Shown here one piece after another: positions 28,642 through 29,409 of a DNA stretch of 64,000 nt (positions within the stretch are counted from its first letter, which is position 1; every line of letters starts with the position of its first letter). Location: contig NZ_CP053108.1 in assembly GCF_013009075.1 (NCBI RefSeq), forward strand, positions 434,001-498,000, given 5' to 3'. This stretch comes from Halomonas sp. TA22. GTDB lineage: Bacteria > Pseudomonadota > Gammaproteobacteria > Pseudomonadales > Halomonadaceae. Made by a program: the position numbers and the translations under genes. Under the pieces are notes generated by a model. It did not search any database and was not told the DNA's origin. It worked only from the letters and a program-made list of their open reading frames with translations.

Positions 28642-28664
28642 GAGGCGTGCCGCGCTGACCCATG

Positions 28665-28679
28665 TGTCATATCGCGACA
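28665..28679. promoter_or_regulatory. Candidate enhancer-binding-protein site (TGTC-N7-GACA)
   Basis: The inverted repeat TGTC...GACA (GTGTC/GACAC with one more pair) is centred about 135 bp upstream of the start predicted from the sigma-54 promoter at 28780. This is the usual place for an activator's upstream site. The activator is not identified. Confidence 0.35.
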
Positions 28680-28736
28680 CTCCAAACCCACGATTCGACG
28701 CCCGCTCAGCCCAGCCATCAATGCCGAATAAAATAT

Positions 28737-28779: not shown

Positions 28780-28796
28780 TTGGCACAGCCTCTGCA
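28780..28796 (+). promoter_or_regulatory. Sigma-54 (RpoN) -24/-12 promoter
   Basis: TTGGCACAGCCTCTGCA matches YTGGCACGNNNNTTGCW at all but two positions. The invariant GG (28782-28783) and GC (28794-28795) are separated by exactly 10 bp. An extra TTGGCACAGC copy just upstream has the wrong GG-GC spacing. Start of transcription is expected near 28807, 113 nt before the next ATG. Confidence 0.7.
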
Positions 28797-28919
28797 AAAG
28801 CTAGGACAAGCAAGACATACTGGCGAGTCGGCATATCAAGGCTCCAAGGTATGAATGTAAGAGAAGCCCCGCTTCTAAAATTCGAAGACCAGCAAGCCTA
28901 CTAAGGATGGAGGTGCAGC

Positions 28920-29204
28920 ATGATGTCCAAGGAATTTCTCAAGAAGATCGGTATTCTCGGTGTTTCTTTTGGCCTGATCGCCAGCCCGCTAGCGTTCGCC
29001 GCGCAAGATGACGAATACGAGCCGATGGATCCGGCACCGCAGGAAGAGCCTGCTCCGGACGTCGACACCAATAGCGAATTCGATAACGACGAATTCGACA
29101 ACGATGACTTCGAAACCGAATACGAAGATGAAGAGCAGGAGGACACCCTCGACGATGACGAAGAGTGGGATGTTCCTGCCGAAGATGAAGAGCAAAGCTG
29201 GTAA
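28920..29204 (+). CDS. Small acidic exported protein, unknown function
   Basis: 94 residues. Residues 1-28 are a classical signal peptide (KKIGILGVSFGLIASPLAFA) with an AFA-A cleavage site. The mature 66 residues are nearly all Asp, Glu, Pro and Asn with no cysteine and no fold I recognise, so a disordered polyanionic periplasmic or secreted peptide is likely. The ribosome site GGAGG (28909-28913) is good. It overlaps AAGGATG (28903-28909), and a second CCAAGGA lies at codons 3-5. Both resemble CsrA/RsmA operators, so translation may be repressed by CsrA. A sigma-54 promoter lies upstream and a CsrA-sponge-like array follows in the same transcript. Confidence 0.75.
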   Translation: MMSKEFLKKIGILGVSFGLIASPLAFAAQDDEYEPMDPAPQEEPAPDVDTNSEFDNDEFDNDDFETEYEDEEQEDTLDDDEEWDVPAEDEEQSW

Positions 29205-29409
29205 GCGCAGCCAACGCTAGCCAAGGATGGCCACTTGCCCAAGGATGGGCAGTAAGCACCAAGGACGGGTTGATGCCTAGGGAAGGGCATGGGACGAATG
29301 ACGGGAACGCTACCCAAGGATGGGTGACATTCACTTGACAGTCCCGCTAGCAGTGTTGGAAAGCCTTACCATGACAGCCGCTTCCGGCTTTGCCGGAAGC
29401 GGCTTTTTT
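29205..29409 (+). ncRNA. CsrB/RsmZ-like CsrA-sponge array in the 3' part of the transcript
   Basis: Five hairpins in a row present GGA in the loop. The first is GCC-AAGGAT-GGC (29220-29231). The second is TGCCC-AAGGAT-GGGCA (29236-29251). The third is ACC-AAGGACG-GGT (29258-29270). The fourth is ATGCCT-AGGGAA-GGGCAT (29273-29290, one G-T pair). The fifth is TACCC-AAGGAT-GGGTG (29311-29326). CAAGGAUG is the high-affinity CsrA/RsmA motif (CANGGAUG). Copies are spaced 18, 20 and 55 bp, not multiples of three, so this is not a coding repeat. No independent promoter is obvious just upstream, so it is probably the 3' untranslated part of the acidic-protein mRNA or processed from it. A strong terminator ends it. 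Confidence 0.65.
29377..29409 (+). terminator. Strong Rho-independent terminator
   Basis: A perfect 12-bp stem GCCGCTTCCGGC/GCCGGAAGCGGC, TTT loop and T6 tail. It closes the transcript carrying the acidic protein and GGA hairpins. Confidence 0.93.

Follow-up and report, generated by a model that had tools for sequence, protein, structure and literature searches.

A hairpin array behind a small ORF

The window (the whole stretch of 64,000 nucleotides that was analysed, in whose coordinates positions are given unless stated otherwise) carries on its + strand an ORF at 28920-29204, with an array of hairpins and a terminator directly downstream (29205-29409). The predicted product of 94 aa begins with a signal peptide, MMSKEFLKKIGILGVSFGLIASPLAFA, and would be exported; its mature part is acidic, with 34 Asp or Glu among 67 residues, no Lys or Arg, and a pI of about 4. 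Searches of Pfam and NCBIfam with this product returned no match.

Direct reading of the sequence combined with a scan for ANGGAN hairpins revealed four good hairpins and one weak one within 107 nt (29220-29326), all on the + strand. The good ones are hairpin 1, GCC-AAGGAT-GGC (29220-29231); hairpin 2, TTGCCC-AAGGAT-GGGCAG (29235-29252); hairpin 4, ATGCCT-AGGGAA-GGGCAT (29273-29290), which has a U-G closing pair; and hairpin 5, TACCC-AAGGAT-GGGTG (29311-29326). Site 3, CC-AAGGAC-GG (29259-29268, loop 29261-29266), was identified from sequence and fold. Its closing stem of CC/GG has only 2 bp, so that it is weak alone; an outer stem is present in the ensemble fold. An earlier note on this DNA had described five GGA-loop hairpins, three with AAGGAT, one with AAGGAC and one with AGGGAA, followed by a terminator with a 12-bp stem. 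All five loops were found in place and their sequences confirmed, but the one at 29261 does not rank with the other four. The intrinsic terminator is also present (29376-29409, +), with a T run and a stem (29376-29404) of 13 bp rather than 12.

Across the 64-kb window, ANGGAN hairpins with a stem of at least 3 bp numbered 10 on the + strand and 5 on the - strand, and the array was the sole cluster of three or more. The pattern CAAGGAYG-N(4-34)-CAAGGAYG matched six times in the 3.73-Mb genome, and its reversed control not at all. Folded from the stop codon through to the terminator, the RNA was more stable than every one of 200 dinucleotide shuffles (z = -4.0). The layout is that of RsmW-like 3′UTR sponges, in that a GGA hairpin array comes after the stop codon of an ORF and before a terminator, with no other terminator in between, and several GGA motifs sit inside ANGGAN hairpin loops as in RNAs of the CsrB/RsmZ type. 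The Rfam covariance search suggested in the earlier note gave rsmX as top match, at 18.3 bits versus a cut-off of 56, and the array stayed under all Rfam cut-offs; even relaxed thresholds yielded only sub-threshold rsmX and RsmY scores, which speak neither for nor against the CsrA reading. Since an RsmY-like RNA elsewhere in the same genome likewise fails (19.6 versus 57), the Rfam models reach these bacteria poorly.

The gene family of the ORF

Of the 250 Halomonadaceae genomes sampled, 113 contained relatives of the ORF, with members in Franzmannia, Billgrantia, Halomonas, Litchfieldella and Aidingimonas, and none turned up in the sampled genomes of the rest of the order. Among the genomes sampled, this predicted family of acidic exported proteins was thus found only in Halomonadaceae. 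In five loci of the Franzmannia group (L002-L006), two or three family genes stand in tandem, and the third copy has neither hairpin nor sigma54 site.

The 5′ leader of the window gene (28807-28919, +) contains AAGGATGGAGG, which overlaps the Shine-Dalgarno site and is a possible further CsrA contact, by inference only. The leader has an unremarkable fold (z = -0.37). GGA sites overlapping the Shine-Dalgarno region and codons 4-5 were found in many members of the family.

Sigma54 promoter and enhancer-like element

A sigma54 promoter (-24/-12), TGGCACAGCCTCTGCA, was identified at 28781-28796 (+), and transcription of the window gene is expected to start near 28807. The site has GG at -24, GC at -12, a 10-bp spacing and an enhancer-like element upstream, as such promoters should. 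It is conserved in the upstream regions of the family, where sites scoring 0.8 or more were counted in 85 of 124 regions, compared with 5.1% of random windows and two sites on the opposite strand; the consensus is TGGCMYG-N4-CTGCA, mostly 120-160 bp upstream of the start codon. Family members with hairpins have the promoter more often (63/79) than hairpin-less ones (22/45; Fisher p = 0.0006, a value inflated by kinship).

The enhancer-like element, CATGTGTCATATCGCGACAC (28661-28680, +), is a putative site for an NtrC-type activator. Its ATGTGYS core is conserved, being found in 84 of the 85 members that have a sigma54 site (shuffled expectation 5.65). In the family the element pairs CATGTGYCA with a second half of CCAC/ACA type downstream. 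In 83 members the -24 follows 107-111 or 117-120 bp downstream of it; the remaining member has it at -72. These spacings, about 110 and 119 bp, are roughly one helical turn apart. A longer pattern, CATG-N13-CATG, was rejected as the enhancer, since it merely reflects the shorter CATGTGYCA.

Neither a sigma70 promoter nor any internal promoter was found. The earlier note, which saw no separate promoter, had overlooked the sigma54 site ahead of the ORF, a good one, and likewise the enhancer-like element and the conservation across the family. No GacA box was found upstream of the window gene, and control of the family through such a box was rejected, with one weak match among 125 members. Another mark of CsrB/RsmZ-type RNAs, an independent noncoding transcript with a GacA/UvrY box, is accordingly missing here, where a sigma54 promoter precedes the ORF.

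Conservation of the hairpins

The 83 nonredundant family 3′UTRs contain 47 strict ANGGAN hairpins; their dinucleotide shuffles average 0.17, and no such hairpin lies on the opposite strand. A GGA core was present in 31 of 49 hexaloop hairpins of the family 3′UTRs. A set of 69 hairpins was then defined by a GGA core in a hexaloop and at least four Watson-Crick pairs, the rest of the loop and the closing pair being left unconstrained. Loop position 1 was A and the closing pair C-G in all 69, with position 2 variable (A in 28, G in 18, T in 12, C in 11) and position 6 mostly T (46; A in 9, C in 8, G in 6). The 69 hairpins are not independent events, because there are related sequences among them. 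The C-ANGGAN-G hexaloop is a known ligand of CsrA/RsmE (PMC7652899).

In one genus, 37 genomes, each of a different species, carry a single hairpin about 30 nt past the stop codon, in which the A.GGA core never varies, the stem is paired in 97.6% of its cells and three of the five pairs have undergone compensatory changes; the covariation score was reached by none of 500 shuffles. The successive genes in the tandems of Franzmannia and its relatives have one long-stemmed hairpin each, the loop being AAGGAT, AGGGAC, AGGGAA or ATGGAA according to species. Overall, 67 of 125 family 3′UTRs contain one hairpin and 44 contain none; arrays of four or five are known from the window and three Billgrantia loci (L144, L153 and L168). 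The conservation in Halomonadaceae that the earlier note had asked about is therefore that of a design kept as a rule, not as an exact sequence.

The 69/69 rule, the absence of antisense occurrences and the compensatory stem changes identify an RNA element with the signature of CsrA/RsmE sites. These data support the view that loop, closing pair and stem evolve exactly as the C-ANGGAN-G motif requires, and the comparison shows, within what sequence data can tell, selection on both loop and stem. On the same comparative grounds, the loci represent one gene family with conserved predicted sigma54 and enhancer-like elements and with ANGGAN hairpins between stop codon and terminator. The suggestion that the ligand of the hairpins is an RNA-binding protein other than CsrA, or that they function as DNA repeats, has in its favour only that no binding data exist, and is very improbable in the face of the exact closing-pair rule, the empty opposite strand and the compensatory changes.

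The same promoter module elsewhere

The enhancer-like element and sigma54 site at the right distance from each other gave 14 matches in 58 genomes, and none in the reversed control. The combined pattern matched only the window's gene in its own genome. Most matches precede family genes, or small acidic lipoprotein genes directly upstream of family genes, and one (L188) looks like chance. Two matches in one genus (g11) precede an RNA full of GGA motifs and without an evident ORF. This RNA of about 180-320 nt (L196-L225, e.g. G010:C1:226206-226605, +) has homologues in 34 genomes, in which GGA occurs five to nine times, in most cases at least six; the enhancer-like element (CATGTGYCA) and the sigma54 site were present in 30 of 30 loci read, and many homologues have a covarying stem around an ANGGAN loop. 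No Rfam match was obtained in the five loci scanned, and the RNA is apparently undescribed so far. Being found at 3′UTR and noncoding loci alike, the one module serves both forms of what is seemingly the same activity.

Candidate activator

In the window's genome (L242) and in seven relatives (L243-L246 and L248-L250), an enhancer-bearing lipoprotein locus lies near, and mostly adjoins, a gene for a response regulator of the NtrC type, its domains being a receiver, an AAA+ and a Fis-type one (in the window's genome at 3239.0-3240.4 kb); at L243 a histidine kinase gene stands beside the regulator gene. The regulator met no NCBIfam equivalog cut-off and is therefore left unnamed. That it activates the promoter is a reasonable supposition but no firmer than that, inferred from the neighbourhood only, and the window's copy of the gene is not adjacent to such a regulator gene. 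A resemblance to GTGTC sites had suggested PilR as the activator; this is not favoured, since its published hallmarks differ and the neighbourhood favours another NtrC-type regulator. The acidic lipoprotein gene adjoining the regulator gene in the window's genome (L242:5000-5640, +; genome about 3238.0-3238.6 kb) has a CATGTGTCA element and a -12 that is degraded, and around the ribosome-binding site there are two CAAGGATG sites.

A dual-function mRNA as the probable explanation

We consider it probable that the array is the 3′UTR of a sigma54-driven, dual-function mRNA that titrates CsrA, binding and titration both being inferred. An activated NtrC-type regulator, probably of a two-component system, would act with sigma54 to produce a transcript of about 600 nt; this would encode the small acidic protein, which would be exported, and its 3′UTR hairpins, four good and one weak, would bind CsrA dimers, so that the full message, or a 3′ piece cut from it, would withdraw CsrA from other mRNAs. 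The 3′UTR sponge for CsrA/RsmA proposed in the earlier note gains support here from the evolution of loop, closing pair and stem in the family, from the position between stop codon and terminator, and from the presence of two csrA genes in the genome. The separate steps are not equally secure. CsrA is very likely the ligand of the hairpins, although this is inferred without binding data. Titration in trans is favoured over control in cis with only modest confidence; it too is inferred, and the sequence cannot decide. Against the main reading as a whole, there are no binding or expression data, and the activator is assigned from its neighbourhood only.

The array might also act as a separate small RNA, cleaved from the 3′UTR or made from an unseen internal promoter in the manner of RsmW. 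This overlaps with the dual-function mRNA and does not exclude it, and we regard it as quite possible without expecting it. The array and its terminator form a compact module of about 200 nt, and RsmW from the PA4570 3′UTR shows species of 400 nt and 120 nt (PMC4950607). It is ahead of the ORF, however, that conserved promoter elements are found, and the search for an internal promoter was negative.

Control in cis would mean that CsrA on the 3′UTR hairpins makes the mRNA that carries them more stable or less stable, or represses it, perhaps through a bridge to GGA sites where the ribosome binds, with titration incidental. A single hairpin is the commonest state. Most relatives have just one and many have none, which suits a sponge badly if the mRNA is not abundant and agrees equally well with control in cis. 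As more than half of the members have a single hairpin, regulation of its own message by CsrA binding is the serious rival and may be ancestral, the arrays being a later amplification. The GGA sites over the Shine-Dalgarno region and codons 4-5 of many members are in keeping with it, and other proteins are known to shield mRNAs through 3′UTR stems (PMC7821165). Nevertheless, titration accounts better for the four- and five-hairpin arrays of separate lineages (the window, L144, L153 and L168) and for the noncoding GGA-rich RNA with the same promoter, and the 5′ leader has no special fold. We therefore consider control in cis unlikely as the main function.

Returning to the dual-function mRNA, a broader and more tentative proposal, which we put forward with some doubt, is that Halomonadaceae possess a second, Gac-independent Csr branch, in which a two-component system, sigma54 and CATGTGYCA would control a dispersed regulon of CsrA decoy sites. 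The decoy would be a stand-alone noncoding RNA in one genus as well, and elsewhere would lie in the 3′UTRs of an expanding family of small acidic exported proteins, a message holding as many as five hairpins.

Comparison with known systems

CsrB/CsrC and RsmX/RsmY/RsmZ (Rfam clan CL00106) likewise have multiple ANGGAN stem-loops followed by a terminator, and CsrA titration is the presumed common function; they are independent noncoding transcripts, typically controlled by GacA/UvrY, whereas the window array stands behind an ORF with a sigma54 promoter. CrcZ/CrcY of Pseudomonas are protein-sequestering RNAs driven by a two-component system and sigma54. They are noncoding and target Hfq/Crc via A-rich motifs, and their likeness to the window mRNA is in circuit logic only.

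RsmW of Pseudomonas aeruginosa, made from the 3′UTR of PA4570, is the only 3′UTR-derived CsrA/RsmA sponge found described in the literature searched. It resembles the window array as a GGA-rich RsmA/CsrA-binding RNA in the 3′UTR of a small ORF of unknown function, without a promoter of its own (PMC4950607). PA4570, however, is described as having 74 aa rich in basic residues, whereas the window ORF product is acidic and predicted to be exported, and no sigma54 or CATGTGYCA element is reported for RsmW (PMC4950607). In Halomonadaceae, moreover, the arrangement is shared family-wide, the hairpins number as many as five and the C-ANGGAN-G rule is strict; the likeness is not put forward as homology. 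The flaA mRNA of Campylobacter jejuni is similarly a protein-coding mRNA that also titrates CsrA, but there CsrA acts on the 5′ leader and represses flaA, and not in the 3′UTR where the window sites lie (PMC4894983). In the descriptions consulted, neither RsmW nor flaA is described as having a conserved family with graded site number or such a sigma54 enhancer module. No report of such a system in Halomonadaceae was found in the literature searched, the coverage of which was incomplete.

A review of bacterial 3′UTRs regards the role of CsrA there, if any, as unknown (PMC7821165). The natural series of more than 120 related 3′UTRs with zero to five sites makes CsrA action at 3′UTRs directly testable. 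If the dual-function mRNA is real, sigma54 and two-component signalling would be linked to CsrA by a Gac-free route, and an unannotated protein family would gain a role as a dual-function mRNA family, suggesting that one message can make a protein and also soak up a master regulator.

Other GGA-rich RNAs in the genome

The window's genome also has two GGA-rich stand-alone RNAs, both on the - strand: L259 (2082883-2083003), with a perfect GacA box, TGTAAG-N6-CTTACA, and L252 (1040312-1040502), just upstream of a cspA-type gene. They are related to each other and RsmY-like, and are likely the canonical RsmY/RsmZ equivalents. That the genome already holds them counts against the main reading; it also means that the window array is probably not a canonical CsrB but an extra, differently controlled element. 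A further locus near 135862 of the genome (L067, +) contains GGGCAAGGATGCCCTGGCAAGGATGCC, with two adjoining ANGGAN hairpins. It has no Rfam match, and a near-identical motif occurs across several Halomonadaceae genera. The conserved CAAGGATGCCCTGGCAAGGATG locus there (135.9 kb) was taken for the canonical CsrB in an initial reading only, and the hairpins may sit in a long structured noncoding RNA.
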